Assembly (NCBI RefSeq): GCF_032051675.1
Contig: NZ_CP116968.1
Coordinates: 4,023,001-4,087,000, forward strand
DNA from: Candidatus Nitrospira neomarina
Lineage (GTDB): Bacteria > Nitrospirota > Nitrospiria > Nitrospirales > UBA8639
DNA: 64,000 bases
Reading direction: 5' to 3'
Under the pieces are notes generated by a model. That model saw only the letters and a program-made list of their open reading frames with translations. It did no database searches and had not been told where the DNA came from. Position numbers and translations under genes: made by a program. Positions 49,017 through 60,714 of this stretch are shown here, piece after piece (positions within the stretch are counted from its first letter, which is position 1; every line of letters starts with the position of its first letter).

Positions 49017-52000
49017 TTAAGGAAGTTGTGCATTTGATAGTTTTTCCAGTGCCAGTTGTTTTAAGGTGCGCAAGTCCAATTTTCCCGTTCCCAATACGGG
49101 GATGTGATCTACTTTGATAAAATTGTCCCGTTTGGGAATGAACAGATTGGGCAATCCACTAGCCGAGACCTTTTCCAAGATCTCCGGAATGGCCGATTCT
49201 TCGAGGGTGTGTAAGACGACCAGCTGCTCCCCTTTCCGTTCATCAGGTACGGCGGTGACAGCCAAAACCATGGTTTCGGCGTTTGACGCTTCCAATAACG
49301 CATTCTCAACCCGTCCATGAGGGATCATCTCGCCACCGATTTTGGAAAATCGGGATAGGCGATCCGTAATCGTAATAAACCCATCCTCATCCAGGGCCGC
49401 AATATCTCCGGTAGTGTACCATCCCTGTCGTATCACTTTTGCTGTCAAATCTTCACGGCCTAAATACCCATCCATCACGTTTGGCCCTTTGACTAAGAGC
49501 ATACCTGGGGTGCCGATCGGCAACGGTTGCTCAGTATCAGGATCAACAATTCTAACAGACACGCCTGGAAGTGGCTGTCCGACCGTTCCCCGCCGAGAGG
49601 CGGATTGGAAAAACCCCGAAGCTCGAAAATCTGGACAATTGACTGCAATCACGGGCGAACATTCTGTGACTCCATATCCTTCAATGGGACGAATGCCAAA
49701 TCGTTCTTCGAATGCGATCAGAAGCCGGTCGGGTAACTTTTCTGCGCCTGTGAGTACGATCCGGAGGGAACCGAATTGTTCCGGGGTGCAGCGGCGAAGA
49801 TATAATTGCAGGAAAGTCGGGGTCGTTAAGAGGATGGTGATTCGATGCTGGTGGATTAGGTCTCCAATGGGCCCGGCATCCAAGGGAGAGGGATGGTAGA
49901 TCACGCCGGCTCCATGGATGAGTGGAAACCACAGTGTGGTCAGATATCCGAAAGAATGAAAAAACGGCAAAATCCCCAAAAGTCGGTCATTGTGATCCAG
50001 GTGCAGGACTTGGGCAATTCCTTCCACGTTTGAATCAAGGTTGAAATGACTCAGCAGGACGCCTTTAGGTTCTCCCGTGCTCCCGCTACTAAAAATAATG
50101 GTGGCGATATCATCGATAGAAGGATGAATTGTGGCTCCACAGTGACGCTCCAACATTCGGACTGGAGCGAAGAGCGCTAACAACGCCGCGGTGAGCCGAG
50201 CCTGTAAATTAATTGTGTTTCGAATCTCCTCGATCCAGATAGGAGTAAGGTAAGCCGGGAGTTCGACTTTGGCTTTATTTAAGAAGATGCGGCTGGTGAG
50301 AACCGTTATTAATCCCGCTTGTTTGGCGGTGGCCTCCAACCCTTGTACCCCAAGGGTGTAATTCAAATTGACGGTGGTTTTTCCCGAAAGAGTTGCAGCC
50401 ACATTGGCGAGTGCGCCGCCCACACTCGGAGGCAGTAGAATTCCAACCGTGTGTTGCCCTTCCCAGCGAGGTCTGAGTGCTCTTGCCAAGGCGATAGCGC
50501 CTGTCAGCGCCTTGAAGCAGGACACATGAGGTGTAGTCGCATCTCCAAACATGAGGCGAAAAGGGTGTTTGCGCATGGACCATACAAAACTGTGATGGAG
50601 AGGGCGTCGGCTGGGTTTTCGTAAACGCCAGGCGGCTTCTCCTAATTCTTGAACGGCTTGCCTCACCTCTTCAGCAGATGTGGTTGAGGGGAGGGGATCG
50701 CCGATAGAGAGCGTGATGGGGTAGGGGAAGCAGGTCGGCCATTTTGCCAAAAATCGTCCACCGATGAAACTGAAGATACTCCCCCAGACACGGTCAAGGT
50801 TGATGGGAACAATGGGGACATCCCGACCTTTGACGATACGGGTGAATCCCGACCGGAAGGGTAAGAGGTTACCGGTACGGGTAATTTGGCCTTCTGGAAA
50901 AATGCATACCAGTTCGCCTCGATCGAGACTCTGTCCTGCTTGCCGTAACGCAGATAAAATTTCTCTGGGAGATCCGTTCGAGGAAATGGGAATGACCCCC
51001 ATGATTTTGGCAAAGGGATGGAGCACGCGATGGTCATAATAATGTTGGTCGACGAGAAATCGAATAGGGCGATCGGTGGTGGCGAGTAGGAGCAGTCCGT
51101 CAATGAAGGAGACATGGTTGGGCACCAGAAGTGCCCCGCCTTCTTGCGGAATACGATCCCGCCCGGTGATGGTGAGTCGATAAATGGTGTGGGTGAACAA
51201 GACTAACATCAACCGAATAAACATTTCGGGGAGAACCCGAAGCGCCCAAATGGTCAGAGTCGCGCTCCCGATGCCTGAGACGAGAAAGATATTGCTGGCG
51301 CTAAGCCCGATCTTTGACAGGAATCCTGATCCCAGAGATCCCAAAAGGACTCCTCCAAAGACCAGGGTGTTGGCAAAGGCAATCACGGCCCCTCGTCGAT
51401 CAGCCGGGGATCGCCATTGGATCAGAGCGTTGAGCGGGACCACCACAAATCCGCTGGCGAGGCCGAGACAACCCATGGCCATGAGGGTTCCTCCTAATTG
51501 TGGCTCCCCAAACCCTAAGGCGAAAAGACTGGCGGTTATCCCTGTGCCTCCCAAGGGAAGGTAGCCTAATTCCACTTTGGCCGCTGAGAGTTTTCCGACC
51601 AACAGGGAGCCAATGCCAACCCCAATTCCGAAGGCTGCCAGGGGTAGCCCTGAAAGAGAATCAGATAATTGAAGGACGGCTTTTGCGTAGATCAACACAT
51701 CCTGCCCAACCAAACTGGCCAACGTCCAAAATGCCATGGCCCCCAATATACCCAATTTCAAAACTCGATCTAACCGAAGGGCTTCAATGGCGGCTTTCCA
51801 GGTTTCTCGCACTCCGCCCTCAAGTCGAGCCCGTGGGACTGTGGGAATAAACAAAGAAGCCCATAAACCTATTCCCGAACACACCATAAGCACTAAGCCT
51901 GTTAGCCATGGGGTTTGGCCGGAAAGGTCCAGCAAGGGACCCGCCAATGCGGTCCCTGCAATGATGGCGATGAAGGTCCACATCTCGAGTTGACCATTTC

Positions 52001-52475
52001 CCCATGACAGGCGATGGTGAGGCAGGAGTTCAGGAAGAATTCCATATTTGGAAGGACTAAAAAGGGCGCTTTGGGCACCCATTGCGGCTAGTACCAGGAG
52101 GGGGAGGACTCCACCCAGCGGATTCCAAAAAAGGGCTGCGGTACCGGCTCCCATCAACAAAACTTCTACGGCTTTCATGACGACGATCACGGTTCGCTTA
52201 CTGAACCGATCGGAAAAGACTCCGGCAAAGGCCGAAACCACCATCAGGGGAAGGGTAAAGATGACAAAAGCTTGTGTGGTGGTCGTCTGGGAGGCTGCTT
52301 CAAAATCCGGCCCAGATGCACCTACCGAGGCGGCGACTTGCTTAATAGCCAGGAGAGCGACAATAAGTTTCCAGGCATTATCATTAAAGGCTCCAAAAAA
52401 TTGCGCGACTAGCAGGCCGCGGAGAGCTGCAGACTGAGCTGCAGGTGGTGGGGAGGCTGAGGAAGATTCAGTCAC
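49017..52475 (-). CDS. MFS/acyltransferase/acyl-ACP synthetase fusion (Aas-LplT type)
   Basis: 1152 residues in three parts. Residues 1-430 are a 12-helix major facilitator domain like the lysophospholipid flippase LplT. Residues about 440-620 are a PlsC acyltransferase with NHVSFIDG (His454, Asp459) and FPEG (526-529). Residues about 640-1150 are an AMP-forming acyl-ACP synthetase with SSGSTGEPKG (796-805), YGVTECSP, YTTGDIAALDEDGF and a C-terminal GTGKLDLR lysine. Together they would import lysophospholipid, activate a fatty acid and re-acylate it. E. coli splits this between lplT and aas. Confidence 0.93.
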   Translation of the reverse strand: MTESSSASPPPAAQSAALRGLLVAQFFGAFNDNAWKLIVALLAIKQVAASVGASGPDFEAASQTTTTQAFVIFTLPLMVVSAFAGVFSDRFSKRTVIVVMKAVEVLLMGAGTAALFWNPLGGVLPLLVLAAMGAQSALFSPSKYGILPELLPHHRLSWGNGQLEMWTFIAIIAGTALAGPLLDLSGQTPWLTGLVLMVCSGIGLWASLFIPTVPRARLEGGVRETWKAAIEALRLDRVLKLGILGAMAFWTLASLVGQDVLIYAKAVLQLSDSLSGLPLAAFGIGVGIGSLLVGKLSAAKVELGYLPLGGTGITASLFALGFGEPQLGGTLMAMGCLGLASGFVVVPLNALIQWRSPADRRGAVIAFANTLVFGGVLLGSLGSGFLSKIGLSASNIFLVSGIGSATLTIWALRVLPEMFIRLMLVLFTHTIYRLTITGRDRIPQEGGALLVPNHVSFIDGLLLLATTDRPIRFLVDQHYYDHRVLHPFAKIMGVIPISSNGSPREILSALRQAGQSLDRGELVCIFPEGQITRTGNLLPFRSGFTRIVKGRDVPIVPINLDRVWGSIFSFIGGRFLAKWPTCFPYPITLSIGDPLPSTTSAEEVRQAVQELGEAAWRLRKPSRRPLHHSFVWSMRKHPFRLMFGDATTPHVSCFKALTGAIALARALRPRWEGQHTVGILLPPSVGGALANVAATLSGKTTVNLNYTLGVQGLEATAKQAGLITVLTSRIFLNKAKVELPAYLTPIWIEEIRNTINLQARLTAALLALFAPVRMLERHCGATIHPSIDDIATIIFSSGSTGEPKGVLLSHFNLDSNVEGIAQVLHLDHNDRLLGILPFFHSFGYLTTLWFPLIHGAGVIYHPSPLDAGPIGDLIHQHRITILLTTPTFLQLYLRRCTPEQFGSLRIVLTGAEKLPDRLLIAFEERFGIRPIEGYGVTECSPVIAVNCPDFRASGFFQSASRRGTVGQPLPGVSVRIVDPDTEQPLPIGTPGMLLVKGPNVMDGYLGREDLTAKVIRQGWYTTGDIAALDEDGFITITDRLSRFSKIGGEMIPHGRVENALLEASNAETMVLAVTAVPDERKGEQLVVLHTLEESAIPEILEKVSASGLPNLFIPKRDNFIKVDHIPVLGTGKLDLRTLKQLALEKLSNAQLP

Positions 52476-53243
52476 CGGGATTACGAGGTGTGAGTATTGG
52501 TTTTTTCTTCAATTATCCTTGAGTTCAAGGAGATATTAAACAAATATACTTCATAACGAAACCGAAACTACCTGTCGGTTGTTGCCCTGAATAGGACTCC
52601 AAGGGGGTATACCCTGAGGCCGAGAGGGTTCAATGGTAGGCATGGTTTGTATGGTTTCCCGGTAAAAAGAAGTCGAGACCGCCCTCAGAATTCAAAAGGG
52701 GGTACGTCATTTTTCGAATAGCGAGAAAAATAAGTTGAGTTATCTTGTAGGAACCATTCTTCCCCGTCAATCATTTTTAGGTCCATGTATTTTATCCTTT
52801 GAAGTGAGTTGGCGAAACACATGGTTCGATCCTTGAGGGCCACACATCTTATCAAAGAAAACACGCCAATACCTACTTGCAGTTTCGATCAATACCTCTC
52901 GTGAAGGGATACCTCCGTTTTAAATGGTTCGGAAATCTTACACCGTTCTGGAAGTGCATACCGTAGGCCAGCTACAGCAGGTGCCTTTTCTTCCAAAGCT
53001 AATCCTTCTCCCTTGAGAATCCGGCTTTTCTCTGGATGCAGAAACATGCGAGCTAAGCTTCCAGGGCTCTTAAGGTTCCTTCGTATACAGCCGATTCATT
53101 CCCATATGCCGCGCCAAGGTTTCGGTTGAGATGTTTTGGCATGTTTTCTTCCGTTTTCATAACCGGGATTCCTAGAATTAATAGATTTCGCAATATAGTA
53201 GAAATGCCATCTCGGTAAAGGGGACTGGACGGCTATTTTCGCG
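52476..53243. other. divergent intergenic region
   Basis: About 770 bases between the divergent acyltransferase fusion and the first kinase gene. No supported gene, tRNA or repeat. Promoters for both sides must lie here; I could not single out a convincing one. Confidence 0.45.
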
Positions 53244-54104
53244 ATGACGACTCAGACGAAATCATCAGGTGTTTCGACCGGACAAATGGGAGGAGTGGGG
53301 GAGTCCATCTTCCATCGAATGCGAAACGTCTTGAATAGCATACATGTGTCTGCCGGTCTCATTAGCCATCGGCTTCGGGAATGTCATGTGGCAGATGTTG
53401 GGCGGGTTGCAGATATGTTGGAGGCCCACAGCCATGAATATGGGAAGTACCTCACTCAAGATCCCAAAGGGAAAAAAATTCCACATTTCTTGGGGCAGTT
53501 GAGTGAGGAATTGGCACAGAACCACCTCGACACTCTGACAGAATTGACCACACTCAATTATCACCTTGAACAATTGGAATATTTTCTGACGGTTGGGCAA
53601 GCACCCCTTCGGGTCGGGGGATTTAAAGATACCATTCAGTTTGCAACGATTATGGACGAGGCCTTGGCTCCCCATCAGGGGGAATTGGATCGGATGGGAG
53701 TCCAAGTGTGTCGGGAGTATCAAATGGTTGGCGAAGGTATTCTGGAGGTATCCAAGCTCTTCTGCATTGTGGTGAATTTGATCCGAAACGCGATCAATGG
53801 GATGCGGAAGAAAACCGACCGGACCCATCGTCTCACTCTATCTGTGTTGCCTTGCCCTGACCGCGAAGGGTTTGTCCGCTTGCAGGTCGCTGATACTGGC
53901 AGCGGAATCCCTTTGGATTGTCTCACGCGGGTGTTTTTCCCGCAGGCGCCGGGAGAGCAATCAGACCTGTTGCCGAATCTTCATGCCAGTGCTATAGCGG
54001 CCAAAGAGCTTGCTGGATCACTGCGGGTGTGGAGTGACGGTCCAATGCAGGGAGCAATTTTTACCCTTGATTTGCCAGTTATTCACATGGAGGGAGAACA
54101 GTAA
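53244..54104 (+). CDS. histidine kinase-like protein, LHNVGN-type, degenerate ATP lid (HK1)
   Basis: 286 residues without a sensor or membrane segment. The H-box is FHRMRNVLNS (His24), aligned with LHNVGNVLNS of the two relatives downstream. A conserved spacer (YLTQDPKGKKIP) follows, then the ATPase domain: N-box NLIRNAINGM (about 178-187) and G1 DTGSGI (217-222). The G2 region is LLPNLHASA, without the usual glycines, so ATP-lid function may be impaired. The stop shares a base with the ATG of the receiver gene, so the two are coupled. Confidence 0.8.
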   Translation: MTTQTKSSGVSTGQMGGVGESIFHRMRNVLNSIHVSAGLISHRLRECHVADVGRVADMLEAHSHEYGKYLTQDPKGKKIPHFLGQLSEELAQNHLDTLTELTTLNYHLEQLEYFLTVGQAPLRVGGFKDTIQFATIMDEALAPHQGELDRMGVQVCREYQMVGEGILEVSKLFCIVVNLIRNAINGMRKKTDRTHRLTLSVLPCPDREGFVRLQVADTGSGIPLDCLTRVFFPQAPGEQSDLLPNLHASAIAAKELAGSLRVWSDGPMQGAIFTLDLPVIHMEGEQ

Positions 54105-54667
54105 TGGAGAAGGAACAAGGCAACCGGCGTATTTTGGTGATTGATGATAATGTGGCGATCCACGATGATTTTCGAAAAATTCTTGAGAGATCATTAGACA
54201 CCTCGCTGCTTCAAGAGGTTCGGGCCGAATTGTTTGATGATGTGGAAGAACAAAAAATCGTTGAGAAGTTTGAAGTTGAAACGGCGGACCAAGGGCAAAT
54301 GGGACATCGAATGGTGCAGGATGCGATGAAGGCTGAACGGCCGTATGCGGTTGCCTTTGTGGATATGCGCATGCCTCCAGGCTGGGATGGCGTAGAGACT
54401 GTGGAGCATCTGTGGGAAGAAGATCCTGATTTGCAGATTGTGATCTGTACAGCATTCTCGGATCATGCATGGGAAGATGTCATTCAACGATTGAATAACA
54501 ATGGCCAACTCCTCATCTTGCGGAAGCCGTTTGATAATATTGAAGTTTGGCAATTGGCGAATTCCCTCACCAAACGCTGGGCGGAATCGCGTCAAGCAAA
54601 GTCGCAGTTGGAATTATTAGCCAAATGGGCAGAAGAACGGGCCGAGGAAACAATCAAAGCCCACTGA
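54104..54667 (+). CDS. response regulator, receiver only (RR1)
   Basis: 187 residues. The receiver has the acidic pair in LVIDDN (Asp14, Asp15), the phospho-acceptor FVDMRMPPGWDG (Asp87), Thr116 and Lys141 in LRKPFD. The acceptor is about 30 residues farther along than usual because of an insert (ELFDDVEEQKIVEKFEVE). A short helix follows the receiver, and there is no DNA-binding domain. HK1 immediately upstream is the likely partner. The N-terminus of the hybrid kinase at 56219 is its closest relative in the window. Confidence 0.88.
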   Translation: MEKEQGNRRILVIDDNVAIHDDFRKILERSLDTSLLQEVRAELFDDVEEQKIVEKFEVETADQGQMGHRMVQDAMKAERPYAVAFVDMRMPPGWDGVETVEHLWEEDPDLQIVICTAFSDHAWEDVIQRLNNNGQLLILRKPFDNIEVWQLANSLTKRWAESRQAKSQLELLAKWAEERAEETIKAH

Positions 54668-54923
54668 AGTAAGTGAATCTCTCATATTCTGTCAATTCGT
54701 GCATATGGGATGTTCTCCTTTTTGGAAGGATATTTGTGAATTAGGGGATGGCGTCTCTTTACAGAGTGCGCAATATGTCGGCGTGAATTCGCATGGTCCC
54801 GATAATGAATACCATGGATGTTCAAGGCGAAATTTCAGTCGTCCACCGTGGACTGCTATTTTTTTTCGTTGATGAGCTATTTCTCCTTCATGATTGATCT
54901 TCTCTCCTTATCCCCTTCATGTG

Positions 54924-56222
54924 ATGGCCCACGGCATGTCGGAATTTAATAGGCAGGTGCTTTCAGAATTTCCGCTTCTTCGTATGGGGATCGTGGGACT
55001 TCAGGAAAGGGATCTTCCCCCATCCTGTCAAAGGGTGTTGGCTTCTCGGGGTTCCATGCTTCAGATCACCTGGTTTGACTATACCTCAGTGCATCTCTCC
55101 TGTTTTAACTCTGACAACCCATTTGATCTCATTTTCGTGGACTGTCGCGTGAAGCGGAGGGGAGAGGAGATTGCGCGCGATATCAAAAAAACCTTTGGCA
55201 ATGCGTTCATTTTGGGATTGATCCATGATGATATGCACGATGGGGAGGGAATAAACGAACCGGCTATTGATTGGCTGGTAAATGAGCATATGGCGGGTGT
55301 CGCGATTCCCTGGGCCATTCAAGAGGGGTTGGTTCGACGTCGGGATTTGATCGAGCGGGAACAATTGCGCAGGCAGGTGGAGGATGCCTCTTATAAAATT
55401 GAGATGGCGGATGTCGCCTCAACCGTGTTGCACAATGTGGGTAATGTGCTCAATAGCGTCAATGTGGCGGTGCATGTGGTCCATGAGTTGCTTAATCAGT
55501 CTTCAGTGATTTTGGTTCATCGAATTGCGGAACTATTAAAGCGGCATGATGAGAATTGGGAAATTTTCCTCACTCAGGATCCAAAAGGAAGGCGGATTCC
55601 ACCGGCGATTATGAAATTGGGGAGCCACCTCATAGAAGAGCAACAGACGGTGCTAAAAGAATTGGAAGGTCTGGCTCGCAATATTGATCACGTGAAACAA
55701 ATTATCATTTCACATCAGACGATGGCGAAGTCTCGGGGCACCAGCGAGGCTCTCTCTGTAGTGGAACTTTTGGACCAAGCGGTGGAGTTAAGTTTTCAAC
55801 CTGGGGATGCGAAGTGGATCAGGATCAAACGAGACTATCAGCCTGTCCCGGCTGTTGTAACCGATCGGCATCAGCTCCTTCAAATTCTCGTGAATCTGCT
55901 ACGAAATGCTAAACAGGCGATGCAATCAAAGGACGGAGTTGACCACCAGCTCACCATACGAGTCGAAGTTCGGACCGATGATGGATTTTCCGTTGTCATC
56001 ACCATTCAAGACACGGGCATAGGAATTGCGCCTGAACATTTGGCCAGAATGTTTACTCGCGGTTTTACGACAAAACACGATGGCAATGGGATTGGTCTGC
56101 ATAGTTCGATGGTCAAGATTCATCGTATGGGTGGATTGTTGCAGGCTCATAGCGAAGGGGTTGGCGCCGGCGCAATCTTGACGCTGATCCTTCCGGTTGA
56201 GGCAGAGGTCGGACAGACATGA
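54924..56222 (+). CDS. LHNVGN-type histidine kinase with N-terminal receiver-like domain (HK2)
   Basis: About 432 residues. Residues 15-140 look like a receiver fold: FDLIFVDCRVKRRG has an Asp73 at the acceptor place, but the acidic pair and the Lys are not clear. The H-box LHNVGNVLNSVNV (His170) and spacer FLTQDPKGRRIP follow. The ATPase domain is intact: NLLRNAKQAM, DTGIGIAPE, FTTKHDGNGIGLHSS. Start choice between ATG 54924, ATG 54936 and TTG 54894 is open; none has a good ribosome site. It overlaps the hybrid kinase gene by four bases. Confidence 0.85.
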   Translation: MAHGMSEFNRQVLSEFPLLRMGIVGLQERDLPPSCQRVLASRGSMLQITWFDYTSVHLSCFNSDNPFDLIFVDCRVKRRGEEIARDIKKTFGNAFILGLIHDDMHDGEGINEPAIDWLVNEHMAGVAIPWAIQEGLVRRRDLIEREQLRRQVEDASYKIEMADVASTVLHNVGNVLNSVNVAVHVVHELLNQSSVILVHRIAELLKRHDENWEIFLTQDPKGRRIPPAIMKLGSHLIEEQQTVLKELEGLARNIDHVKQIIISHQTMAKSRGTSEALSVVELLDQAVELSFQPGDAKWIRIKRDYQPVPAVVTDRHQLLQILVNLLRNAKQAMQSKDGVDHQLTIRVEVRTDDGFSVVITIQDTGIGIAPEHLARMFTRGFTTKHDGNGIGLHSSMVKIHRMGGLLQAHSEGVGAGAILTLILPVEAEVGQT

Positions 56223-57682
56223 ATCCCGTCTGTACTCTTAATCGACGGATCTTAGTGATCGATGATAGCCCGAACGTTTTACAGGATTTTCGGAAAATTC
56301 TGTGTCCCGCCATAAGGTTCATTTCCGATGCGTGTTCGGAGGGGAGTCATGATCTTTTTGATGAGCTCTTCCTGCATCATGGAAAAGAACCCTTCGATCT
56401 CGATTGTGTGGACAATGGAGAGTCAGGGCGTGATCTGGTCACGCAAGCTAAGGCGGAGGGGTCTCCCTTTGCGGTGGTGTTCTTGGATGTCCAATTGCCC
56501 AATGGCTGGGATGGGTTTGAAACGGTTGAGCGAATTTGGAATGAGGATTCTGACGTACAAGTCGTATTGTGTACGGCCAATCTTGATTGTGGGTGGTCAG
56601 AGGTATTGCCTCGCTTAGGACGCCGGGATCAATTATTAATTTTACGTAAGCCCTTTGATCCGATTGAGGTGTGGCAATTGTCTTCGGTTTTGACGATGAA
56701 GTGGCATTGGGCTCAGCAGGCCCGGTTGCGGGTTCAGGAACTCGAGCAGATCGTCATGACGCGCACGGGCCTCCTTGAAGATACCAACCGTCGTTTGGAG
56801 CAGGCTTTGCTCAGGCGACAAGCGGTTGAGGTTCAGTTGGCTCAAGCGATCCGTGATGTCGAAGAACGCACTCTCGAACTTTCTGCTGTCCGTGACCGTG
56901 CGTTGAATGAAATTCATGAACGGGAACGGGTCGAAGTCATATTGCGTCACAAAACCGATGAATTGGCCAGGTCGAATCGCGACTTGGAGCAATTTGCGTC
57001 GGTTGCAGCCCATGATTTACAGGAACCGCTTCATTCCATCCAGGTATTCCTTGATCTCTTACGGCTGAAGTATGGATCAGCTCTTACCACTCATGGTCTG
57101 GGGTACGTTGATCGCGTCAAAAATGCGGCTGGTCGTATGCAACAGCTGATTCAAAGCCTGTTGGTGTATTCCAGGGTCGAGTTGCCGCAAATGGCAGAGG
57201 AGAAGCTTGTCTTGCGGGAGTTGGTTGAGGAAATCCTATCGGATCTCGGCGCCCGAATCGAGGAATCGCGGGCTGTCGTTCAACTTGGGGAATTACCCGT
57301 CATTTATGGAAATCCGATTCAAATCAGACAATTGTTACAAAATTTGCTGGGCAATGCCTTGAAATTTCATCAGCAGGGGGTGCCACCTGTCATTCGTATC
57401 ACAGCAACGATCATGCAGGATCGACGTCACACAGGTTCAGGCCAGCATGGGAAGCTTTGTCAAATCGAAATTCATGATCAGGGAATTGGTATTCCGCCAG
57501 AACAGTTCGAACATATTTTTGGGATGTTTAAGCGACTTCATCGGAAAGAGGAATTCGAAGGGACAGGGATGGGGTTAGCAGTGTGTCAACGTATTGTCGA
57601 GCAGTGCGGTGGAGCCATCTCCGTTCGTTCCAAGCCGGGAAAAGGATCAACCTTTATAGTCACGCTTCCCATTCCGCGATGA
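56219..57682 (+). CDS. receiver/histidine kinase hybrid
   Basis: 487 residues. Receiver domain: LVIDDS pair, acceptor Asp90 in VFLDVQLPNGWDG, Lys144 in LRKPFD. Residues about 165-255 are a coiled coil. The kinase part is the HisKA phytochrome-like type, with VAAHDLQEPLHSIQ (His265) and an intact ATPase domain (NLLGNALKFH, DQGIGIPPE, GTGMGLAVCQRIVE). The receiver resembles RR1, so phosphate could arrive from HK2, whose gene overlaps this one, and then control this second kinase. Cytoplasmic; no DNA-binding domain. Confidence 0.9.
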   Translation: MNPVCTLNRRILVIDDSPNVLQDFRKILCPAIRFISDACSEGSHDLFDELFLHHGKEPFDLDCVDNGESGRDLVTQAKAEGSPFAVVFLDVQLPNGWDGFETVERIWNEDSDVQVVLCTANLDCGWSEVLPRLGRRDQLLILRKPFDPIEVWQLSSVLTMKWHWAQQARLRVQELEQIVMTRTGLLEDTNRRLEQALLRRQAVEVQLAQAIRDVEERTLELSAVRDRALNEIHERERVEVILRHKTDELARSNRDLEQFASVAAHDLQEPLHSIQVFLDLLRLKYGSALTTHGLGYVDRVKNAAGRMQQLIQSLLVYSRVELPQMAEEKLVLRELVEEILSDLGARIEESRAVVQLGELPVIYGNPIQIRQLLQNLLGNALKFHQQGVPPVIRITATIMQDRRHTGSGQHGKLCQIEIHDQGIGIPPEQFEHIFGMFKRLHRKEEFEGTGMGLAVCQRIVEQCGGAISVRSKPGKGSTFIVTLPIPR

Positions 57683-57802
57683 GAAGAGTGGACGGCCAGT
57701 TCCAAAGATGACCCACAGAGCTTTACCGATTGGGAGAAGCATAGATTGCTGGCATTTGCTTTGTGAATATTGGGAAGAAATTTTTAAATTTCATTATAAT
57801 TT

Positions 57803-59650
57803 ATGGCACCGATTCCTGCGCATCGCCCTGTATTACTAATTTGGACGCATCCCGAAATCCAGGTCTTGTTGCGCGATGCATTGTCTGCGCCGTCTGTGGA
57901 TGTCCGGCCGGTAGAAAGCTTATTAAGTGACAATAGTATTGTAAGCTCCGGTGTTCAGCCATATTTACCGCAGTTCACTCTTGTCAGCGTGGAAATGGGG
58001 CCTCAGGCATTAGCGACGTTCGCAGAGGCTCAAGCTGCCAACAATCGTTTTGCACTCGTTGTGATTGAGGGTCGTTCAGGGGATTGGGAGATCGTGCGAG
58101 ATCTGGCTGAGGAGTTGTGGAATTGTGATCAGACCTTACGGTGCATCTTCTGTCTTCCCTCTAATCGCACATCCTGGCCCCATCGACTGGTTGTGAGCCG
58201 GCCCGAGCAATGGGCGATACTTCGGGTCCCATTTCTTGGAGAGGAGGCCTTTCAATTAGCCAGTTGTTTGAGCCTGCCGTTACCGAAACCCGTGCCGCCT
58301 GCGTTTGATAGGGCAACCGACTCTGAGGAAATCAGTTGCTCCTCTACCCCCTATCTGGATATTGATGCCCCTAATGGCGAAGAGGCGACAGGGGCATTGG
58401 CATCTGCACGTGGCGAATTAGCCGCTTCCAGATATTATGTTGAGAATATTCTCAGATCGATGGCCGACTCTCTATTAGTCATTAACGCCGATATGACCAT
58501 CGGAGCGGTGAATCCTTCTTTGCTAAACCTTTTGGGTTATCAGGAGAATGAACTCATTGGGCAGTCGCCCGGCTTGATTTTTGGCGAGGAATTTTCCCAA
58601 GGTGCTATTATCGAAAATCTTTTACTTCAAGGATCGGTGAGTGGTGTGGAGTCCAGTTTCCTGACTCATGAGGGACAGAAAATTACCATTTCCGTCTCTG
58701 GTTCGATGATGCAGGATTTGCAAGGGCAATTTCAGGGGTTGGTATGTGTTGCTCAGGATATCACTGAACGAAAACGGATGGAAGAAGAGAAGCTGCAATT
58801 GCATGAGCAGTTAATGGAAACCTCAAGACAGTTGGGAATGGCCGAAGTGGCGACGGGTGTGCTGCATAATGTTGGGAATGTGTTAAATAGCATTAACGTA
58901 TCCATCGGGGTCATCACAGATCTTTTGAAAAATTCGATGGTGGGGGATGTAGGTCGGATCTCACAGTTATTGGATAAGCATCGTGAAGATCTGGGAACGT
59001 ACTTATCGCAAAACCCCAAGGGGAAACAAGTACCGCATTATTTGGGGAAATTATCGGGGCAATTGAAAGAAGAGCAGCGAGTGGCACTGTTGGAATTGGA
59101 GCGCTTGAGGGAGAATGCCGGGCATGCCCAGCAATGTGTTGCAGCCCAACAGGATCTGGCTAAGCCCAACGGGATGACGGAACAGGTAGGTGTACCTGAG
59201 GTGATAGCGGAAGCTCTGGCCGTGAATCAAAAGATGTTGGAGGAGACCAACGTGGCGGTGATTCAAGAGTTTCAGGAGGTGCCACAGCTCAACGTGGATA
59301 AGCATCAACTCCTTCAAATTTTAGTGGATGTCATTCGCAATGCCTGTCAGGCCATGGAATCGGCTGCCCAGAGGCACTTAATTGTGCGTATCAAGCTCAT
59401 CGTTGGCCCTCCGGATTCTCTTTGCTTGGAAGTTCAGGATACCGGCAGCGGGATTCCTCCCGACGACATTACGAAAATTTTTGGTCAAGGGTATAGCACC
59501 AAATATGGAGGACGGGGCTTGAGTCTGCATCACGGTGCGTTAATGGCAAAAAATATGGGCGGGGCGCTTCGCGCTCAAAGTGAGGGTTTGGGGCAAGGCG
59601 CCACATTTTTTCTAGACCTGCCAGGGAATTTTCATTTTCCCGATTTGTAA
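57803..59650 (+). CDS. PAS-domain LHNVGN-type histidine kinase with pseudo-receiver (HK3)
   Basis: 615 residues. The N-terminal 170 look like a receiver that has lost its active site: ALVVIEGRSGDWE stands where the Asp acceptor is found in RR1, and ILRVPFLGEEAFQLAS where RR1 has LILRKPFD. A PAS domain (about 210-325: ILRSMADSLLVINADM, VCVAQDITERKRMEEE) follows, then H-box LHNVGNVLNSINV (His355), spacer YLSQNPKGKQVP and an intact ATPase domain (DTGSGIPPDD, STKYGGRGLSLHHG). PAS suggests sensing of a small ligand or redox state. Confidence 0.87.
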   Translation: MAPIPAHRPVLLIWTHPEIQVLLRDALSAPSVDVRPVESLLSDNSIVSSGVQPYLPQFTLVSVEMGPQALATFAEAQAANNRFALVVIEGRSGDWEIVRDLAEELWNCDQTLRCIFCLPSNRTSWPHRLVVSRPEQWAILRVPFLGEEAFQLASCLSLPLPKPVPPAFDRATDSEEISCSSTPYLDIDAPNGEEATGALASARGELAASRYYVENILRSMADSLLVINADMTIGAVNPSLLNLLGYQENELIGQSPGLIFGEEFSQGAIIENLLLQGSVSGVESSFLTHEGQKITISVSGSMMQDLQGQFQGLVCVAQDITERKRMEEEKLQLHEQLMETSRQLGMAEVATGVLHNVGNVLNSINVSIGVITDLLKNSMVGDVGRISQLLDKHREDLGTYLSQNPKGKQVPHYLGKLSGQLKEEQRVALLELERLRENAGHAQQCVAAQQDLAKPNGMTEQVGVPEVIAEALAVNQKMLEETNVAVIQEFQEVPQLNVDKHQLLQILVDVIRNACQAMESAAQRHLIVRIKLIVGPPDSLCLEVQDTGSGIPPDDITKIFGQGYSTKYGGRGLSLHHGALMAKNMGGALRAQSEGLGQGATFFLDLPGNFHFPDL

Positions 59651-59865
59651 CTTCTTCTATCCAGCGAATTCCATCGTTTTTTCTGGCCGTCTCTTCATGA
59701 GCGTTGTGTTGTTCTGTTGCCTCTTCCTTTTGTTTGGCATTTTTCTTGGACTGTCTTACGGATTCCTACCTCAAGAGTCTGTCTGGTGAAACCGAGAAAA
59801 TTTGAAGGAGTGATAAAAAACTTCCAGCCCCCTGCAATTTTTCTGTGTTTCCTGGAGTATCTCAC

Positions 59866-60714
59866 GTGATTGAATATTGGCATCAAACCGATGATGACTT
59901 TTGGAAGGGGGAGGGAGAAAGGACTCATGAAAATCGGATGTCTTCGTTTCATACTGGAAAGCTACTGGCCCCCTGGTCCAGACCTTTTTCACCGCGGTTA
60001 CTGATGGGAAGGCATACAACATTTGATGAGCTTCCATCTCAAGCGTCACCTTATCTTCACCTTGAGGTGGAAATGCATGTGCAGGCAGTAGCGGGTGATG
60101 CGGGAATGATTCCGGTTGATCTGGAGCGTGCGTTAGGCCTTGGGATCGAAGTATTTCTTTTATCCGAGGGATGTGCAGTAGAGTCTTCGTGTATTGCCGC
60201 CTTGTGGCGGCATAGCCTCAGAACGGGATACCTGGCTGCACGGATTGCCATGAATCAGGAATCGAATTCACGCATGGTCTGGCAATCGTTTGTGGGAGGG
60301 GTGCTTCATGATATTGGCATGCTTGTGTTTTTGACTCAGCATCCGGAGGTATTTTCGACGGTTGTAGAGACATCTCAATGCCGAGGAGGGAGCTTGGCGG
60401 AGTTGGAAAGGCGGGTTTTAGGATATACTCACGGGGAAAGTGGAGCCACTTTCCTGGCGCGATGGGGTATAGATGATGTGTTACTGACCATTGCGGCGTT
60501 CCATGATGATCCATGGAAGGTTCCCCATGCAACCTTCGGCTCTTTGACGGCGGTGTATGCCGGAAATTTTGTTGAGGGAGGAGGGATCGCTCAGGATGGG
60601 GATGGAGTCATTGGAAGAGAAGGAGAAGCCTATTTAACCCGTTTAGGTCTGTGGGAAGATCTACCGATTTGGCAAAGCTGGATGCCAAGTATTCCGAAAC
60701 CGGCGATTCATTGA
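59866..60714 (+). CDS. HDOD-domain signalling protein
   Basis: About 282 residues. The central part matches HDOD/HD-related domains: ALWRHSLRTGYLAARIA and GGVLHDIGMLVF, then AAFHDDPW. These domains occur in bacterial signalling proteins, often next to two-component genes; some have lost phosphodiesterase activity. GTG 59866 has GGAG nine bases upstream and is preferred over GTG 59845. It lies 215 bases after HK3 and may be an output or partner of the array. Confidence 0.8.
   Translation: MIEYWHQTDDDFWKGEGERTHENRMSSFHTGKLLAPWSRPFSPRLLMGRHTTFDELPSQASPYLHLEVEMHVQAVAGDAGMIPVDLERALGLGIEVFLLSEGCAVESSCIAALWRHSLRTGYLAARIAMNQESNSRMVWQSFVGGVLHDIGMLVFLTQHPEVFSTVVETSQCRGGSLAELERRVLGYTHGESGATFLARWGIDDVLLTIAAFHDDPWKVPHATFGSLTAVYAGNFVEGGGIAQDGDGVIGREGEAYLTRLGLWEDLPIWQSWMPSIPKPAIH

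Follow-up and report, generated by a model that had tools for sequence, protein, structure and literature searches.

Neighbouring two-component genes raise the question of where the phosphate goes, either stepwise from each kinase through a receiver to the next kinase, or from several kinases to a common target. Five such genes (HK1, RR1, HK2, HYB and HK3) are located in a row on the forward strand at positions 53244-59650 of the window, the 64,000-nucleotide stretch of Candidatus Nitrospira neomarina DNA analysed here. The original prediction took their layout to suggest a kinase-receiver pair duplication and a possible phosphorelay.

Layout and surroundings of the array

The array and its parts are as follows.

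HK1, 53244..54104, + strand: without sensor domain; bare DHp domain (HRMRN, His24 codon 53313-53315), then a degenerate CA domain with DLLPNLH in place of the G2 box
RR1, 54104..54667, + strand: stand-alone extended-type receiver with helical tail and no output domain; acceptor Asp87 codon 54362-54364
Possible intrinsic terminator in the RR1/HK2 gap, 54841..54866, + strand: hairpin followed by a U-run; z -2.45, weak
HK2, 54936..56222, + strand: decayed N-terminal receiver, long signalling helix, HNVGN DHp domain (His codon 55431-55433)
HK2 CA domain, within 54936..56222, + strand: canonical, intact G2 box (GNGIGL)
HYB, 56219..57682, + strand: Rec-controlled kinase made up of a receiver, a coiled coil, an ordinary HisKA domain (His codon 57011-57013) and HATPase
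HYB receiver, within 56219..57682, + strand: RR1-type, Asp codon 56486-56488
HK3, 57803..59650, + strand: pseudo-receiver, PAS (58442-58789), HNVGN DHp domain (58835-59212, His codon 58865-58867)
HK3 N-terminal pseudo-receiver, 57803..58297, + strand: descended from a receiver of the RR1 type, without the acceptor Asp and the Lys
HK3 CA domain, within 57803..59650, + strand: G2 box partly degraded (GRGLSL)
HDOD-domain protein, 59845..60714, + strand: syntenic in the array, possible downstream partner

The HDOD protein downstream of HK3 is followed by a TPR-containing lytic transglycosylase (SLT). Pfam recognised HATPase_c alone in HK1 and HK2, HATPase_c and PAS in HK3, a lone receiver in RR1 and receiver-HisKA-HATPase in HYB. 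The PAS domain of HK3 had been predicted, as had the lack of a DNA-binding output, and no such domain was found by Pfam in the array. The overlap is 1 base between HK1 and RR1 (TAATG, 54102-54106) and 4 bases between HK2 and HYB (ATGA, 56219-56222), in line with both gene couplings of the original prediction. Judged by the starts of its orthologs, HK2 probably begins at the ATG at 54936 rather than at the TTG at 54894 of the listed open reading frame. If real, the terminator candidate would divide the array into two separately transcribed parts, but the number of terminators found in the scan was close to that in shuffled sequences. Promoter scans at the array performed no better than shuffles. 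A search of the window against Rfam returned two tRNAs and nothing else, and PHROGs gave generic kinase and receiver matches only. Literature searches on the HNVGN motif found nothing, and those on two-component and HDOD work in Nitrospira found nothing on the array locus.

Divergent to the array, the minus strand encodes a 1152-aa fusion (49017-52475), by eye composed of an MFS transporter, an acyltransferase and an AMP-binding ligase, which is syntenic with the array in the genus. The approximately 760 bases between the divergent genes (52480-53243) contain no open reading frame of at least 80 aa and no Rfam match.

A kinase family and its receiver type

The three kinases share an H-box (FHRMRNVLNS in HK1, LHNVGNVLNS in HK2 and HK3) and a PKG spacer (DPKGKKIP, DPKGRRIP and NPKGKQVP, respectively), as had been noticed before. 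No Pfam DHp model, HisKA and HisKA_2 included, matches the DHp domains of HK1, HK2, HK3 and their relatives, and those of HK1 to HK3 have no sequence relative in the PDB. HATPase_c is present in HK1, HK2, HYB and HK3, and the AlphaFold2 model of HK1 contains a helical hairpin with His24. A DHp profile search of the single-contig 4.80-Mb genome returned exactly HK1, HK2 and HK3 (E <= 2e-54). Since the profile matches these three places only, their arrangement in an array is far beyond chance. Among the 41 other kinase matches of HK2 in the genome, all except HYB align only from about residue 240, past the phospho-accepting helix; HYB aligns weakly from residue 154.

Of 296 Nitrospirota genomes, 35 encode an HNxGN DHp domain and 36 an RR1-type receiver, 34 of them both (hypergeometric 4e-41, without correction for phylogeny). 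Genera g7, g8 and g10 each comprise genomes holding both and genomes holding neither (labels of this kind, such as g1, g5, f1 and f2, are codes and not taxon names). In other phyla, the DHp domain was found in 9/284, 3/247 and 4/198 genomes in a profile survey that included the seed genomes and sampled each phylum rather than covering it exhaustively. There, an RR1-type receiver gene is located directly downstream of 10 out of 22 HNxGN kinases surveyed, and the two genes frequently overlap by 4 bases (e.g. in Variovorax); an Acidobacteria locus has the same adjacency. Co-occurrence in genomes and downstream adjacency together suggest that RR1-type receivers are likely the targets of HNxGN kinases. 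In other phyla and in family f2, these receivers have HisKA kinases, GGDEF or GGDEF-EAL as outputs. The HNxGN kinases with REC-GGDEF or REC-GGDEF-EAL modules (family f2, Variovorax) thus show the same kinase-receiver pairing as the array, whereas the receivers in the window have no GGDEF or EAL output.

Several other arrangements of the family were observed. The genomes G337 and G788 encode 15 and 16 HNxGN DHp copies, a large expansion (loci L141, L149, L151-L163 and L165-L180). At L200 (1-6216), the open frame that ends in an HNxGN kinase is very long, 3419 aa according to the genome table, and only PAS and HATPase, near its end, are recognised in it. A dispersed HNxGN copy with an intact ordinary receiver (L188 4921-6252, L189 4858-6168, L192 5134-6459, L194 4655-5944 and L196 5926-7215) lies near other HisKA kinase genes, with no RR1-type receiver gene in the fetched locus; this copy is absent from the genome of the window. 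In family f2 (L197-L203), a related array has the opposite shape: downstream of a single HNxGN kinase come up to four genes whose products begin with an RR1-type receiver and continue with HisKA only, a kinase, a hybrid kinase or GGDEF.

Synteny, duplication and receiver decay

The order HK1, RR1, HK2, HYB, HK3, HDOD and SLT is syntenic across the genus and was kept in contigs L024-L037 and L039 and in genomes G191, G231 and G253, as far as the contigs reach. The 1-base overlap of HK1 and RR1 is conserved in the complete copies. Three sister-genus genomes (G137, G206 and G243) encode RR1, HYB and HK3, only G206 encodes HK2, and HK1, restricted to the genus of the window, is absent from all three.

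In IQ-TREE trees of 81 and 39 rows, all HNxGN kinases of Nitrospirales fall on one side with respect to other phyla (99 and 98/98, respectively). HK1, HK2, HK3, the dispersed copy and the copies of family f2 each form their own clade, HK1 having the longest stem. AU tests fix no order among the HK1, HK2 and HK3 clades (p 0.148 for a single clade among the Nitrospirales copies). As judged from these trees, the clades of HK1, HK2 and HK3 are old and separate from one another. The receivers of Nitrospirales group together as well (93/96), with those of RR1 and HYB closest to each other (87/81, not starred). Within the genome, RR1 is strongly related to the HYB receiver (46%) and weakly to the HK3 N-terminus. 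With the Nitrospirales copies grouped together in kinase and receiver trees, duplication within the Nitrospirales lineage is supported. Of the proposed pair duplication, this part held, but a clean copying of the pair did not, because HK1 is confined to one genus while the sister genus has RR1. The GWDG motif and RKPFD end, present in both receivers as predicted, were rejected as proof of a local duplication, as GWDG and KPF are common in the receiver family of other phyla.

Sequence comparison across the genus establishes the decay of two input receivers. The N-terminus of HK2 is an ordinary-type receiver, intact in G206 (IVEDD, LFDY, LTG, VLKP) and decayed in the genus of the window (Pfam), where the acidic pair and the Lys of a phosphorylatable receiver are lost. 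The HK2 model (a monomer model of middling confidence) has receiver topology at the N-terminus, and its best whole-chain PDB match is LvrB (8vc9). The N-terminus of HK3 is still recognisable as an RR1-type receiver (RPEQWAILRVPF compared to NGQLLILRKPF), without acceptor Asp and Lys; its receiver profile score is 199 in G206, 92 in G243 and approximately 30 in the genus of the window. The dN/dS values (four pairwise comparisons with Nei-Gojobori counting, as for all values given here) are 0.41-0.69 for the HK3 pseudo-receiver, 0.40-0.69 for the HK2 and HK3 pseudo-receivers together and 0.02-0.08 for the HK3 PAS domain.

HYB has a kinase H-box (HDLQEP, Pfam HisKA) unlike that of HK1, HK2 and HK3. 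REC, HisKA and HATPase, together with the acidic pair, Asp90 and RKPFD, characterise it as a Rec-controlled kinase. The receiver is apparently intact in the genome of the window, but it is missing from HYB in at least six loci of the genus (L034-L037, L039 and G231). The LvrA-LvrB system of Leptospira (PMC13269768, PMC5863495) includes such a Rec-controlled histidine kinase, a REC-DHp-CA protein fed by an upstream kinase, which resembles HYB and, formerly, HK2. In contrast to LvrA-LvrB, the upstream kinase of the array has a DHp domain of the HNxGN type, the HK2 receiver is decayed, and the HYB receiver, which belongs to the extended RR1 type, is lost in some relatives. An LvrC-like effector was not identified for the array.

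These data argue against the phosphorelay of the original prediction. The array contains no Pfam Hpt match and no DNA-binding or GGDEF output, as needed for an HK-REC-HPt-REC hybrid relay. Since HYB has neither a C-terminal receiver nor an HPt domain, it is at most a receiver-controlled kinase, its own receiver is missing in part of the genus, and HK1 is devoid of the ATP-lid glycines that a kinase needs. A related reading, a stepwise cascade in which two duplicated cognate pairs act in series (HK1 signalling to RR1, HK2 to HYB) and HK3 is an additional sensor, appears unlikely. It would account for both gene overlaps, for the close relationship of the RR1 and HYB receivers and for the HK2-HYB arrangement, found also in Acidobacteria (L041) and in the sister genus (G206). 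On the other hand, the G2 box is lacking in all 13 HK1 orthologs, the three sister-genus genomes with RR1 have no HK1, and HK2 is still intact in those loci in which the HYB receiver is gone. Convergence of the kinases on RR1 fits the data better than a stepwise relay.

HK1 and a proposed convergence on RR1

In HK1, the G2 box GxGxG is replaced by LLPNL in 13/13 orthologs, whereas GxGxG is kept in 95 of 121 relatives; most of the exceptions are HK3 proteins of the genus of the window, with a milder change. The lid reads LLPNLH in place of GxGxGLH, and its Lys/Thr is gone in all orthologs. The phospho-accepting His24 is invariant, and the N-box (Asn182) and G1 box (Asp217, DTGxGI) are kept, so nucleotide binding is possible. 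From the absence of G2 throughout the orthologs, HK1 may have lost its ATPase activity, although N and G1 are present. Purifying selection acts on the CA domain (dN/dS 0.08-0.19), so HK1 is neither a pseudogene nor a decaying gene. In the AlphaFold2 monomer model (mean pLDDT 77), a DHp hairpin is followed by a CA fold; His24 is located in helix 17-46, paired with helix 79-118, and an extra helix and the PKG turn lie between these main helices. A Foldseek search with the model matched ordinary kinases, and ChpT was absent among the 50 best fold matches shown.

The H-box of HK1 is H(R/K)MRN, compared to HNxGN in the other kinases, with R/K at position +1 and Asn at +4. For HisKA enzymes, an acid at +1 is needed for kinase activity and T/N at +4 for phosphatase activity (PMC3510030). 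Of these two positions, HK1 has altered +1 and retained +4. The rule may not carry over, since +1 is Asn and not acidic in presumably active HNxGN members; kinases of the HRxxN type are active with Arg at this position.

Dead-lid kinases turned phosphotransferases have precedents in ChpT and Spo0B (PMC3433190) and PhyT (PMC5898713). ChpT and Spo0B are kinase-like two-domain proteins without sensor; they carry a phospho-accepting His, and the ATP lid of their CA domain is not functional. HK1 appears similar, but it keeps N-box and G1 and arose independently inside the HNxGN kinase family. PhyT of the Sphingomonas PhyT/PhyP system, a demonstrated phosphotransferase, combines HRxxN with a degenerate ATPase and works with a single-domain receiver, as HK1 might. 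However, PhyT is membrane-bound, has a periplasmic sensor and belongs to the general stress response, whereas HK1 is small, without sensor domain and without Pfam HisKA_2 match. HK1 is probably a DHp protein without kinase function that acts on RR1.

RR1 is the most conserved member of the array and nearly frozen (dN/dS 0-0.05), with 88-97% identity within the genus compared to 48-85% for HK2 and 58-90% for HK3. This conservation is a sign of constraint, without telling which kinase phosphorylates RR1. In G231, a single RR1-type receiver is encoded along with four HNxGN kinases.

We consider it an even chance that HK2 and HK3 phosphorylate RR1, that HK1 is a kinase-dead phosphatase or phosphotransferase of RR1 and that the array is a signalling hub of Nitrospirales in which a multi-step cascade was simplified to convergence on this receiver. 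HK2 (canonical CA domain) and HK3 (PAS sensor, weakened CA domain) would autophosphorylate at the His of HNxGN and transfer the phosphate to RR1, HK2 in the genome of the window also to the receiver of HYB. HK1, whose translation is coupled to that of RR1, would not autophosphorylate and would be dedicated to RR1~P, either as its phosphatase or as a histidine phosphotransferase. Phosphorylated RR1 would act via protein-protein contact, for example with HYB or the HDOD protein. The N-box and G1 of HK1, the intact HYB receiver in the genome of the window and the part of G2 kept in HK3 count against this model.

HK1 could instead be a regulatory subunit, its DHp domain forming heterodimers with HK2 or HK3, where His24 is phosphorylated in trans by their CA domains or HK1 dampens as inactive partner. 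This is rather doubtful. The DHp family is common to the three proteins (30-37% identity of HK1 to HK2 and HK3), and an invariant His next to a dead lid is expected of such a subunit, but the strong divergence of HK1, with the longest stem of the Nitrospirales clades, speaks for insulation and not for heterodimers. It is quite improbable that HK1 retains kinase activity with its unusual ATP lid, as the retained Asn182 and Asp217, the modelled CA fold and the Foldseek matches could suggest, because the glycines and the Lys/Thr of the lid are lost in every ortholog. Neutral decay of a redundant system is hardly credible: relaxed constraint on the pseudo-receivers of HK2 and HK3 would agree with it, but the CA domain of HK1, the PAS domain of HK3 and RR1 are constrained and synteny is kept genus-wide.

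Returning to the proposed convergence on RR1, the changes at this locus touch on the gain and loss of phosphorelays and on the change from kinase to phosphotransferase, which are known from few cases (Spo0B, ChpT, PhyT). The HNxGN DHp family is unmatched in Pfam and the PDB, yet pairs with one receiver type across several phyla. As sister genera keep intact forms, the order of changes is readable. It is conceivable, at somewhat less than even chance, that HK1 evolved independently within this uncatalogued family into a kinase-dead phosphotransferase or phosphatase, and that the locus records how a cascade of receiver-controlled kinases collapsed step by step onto a frozen RR1, with intact, intermediate and lost states in living relatives.
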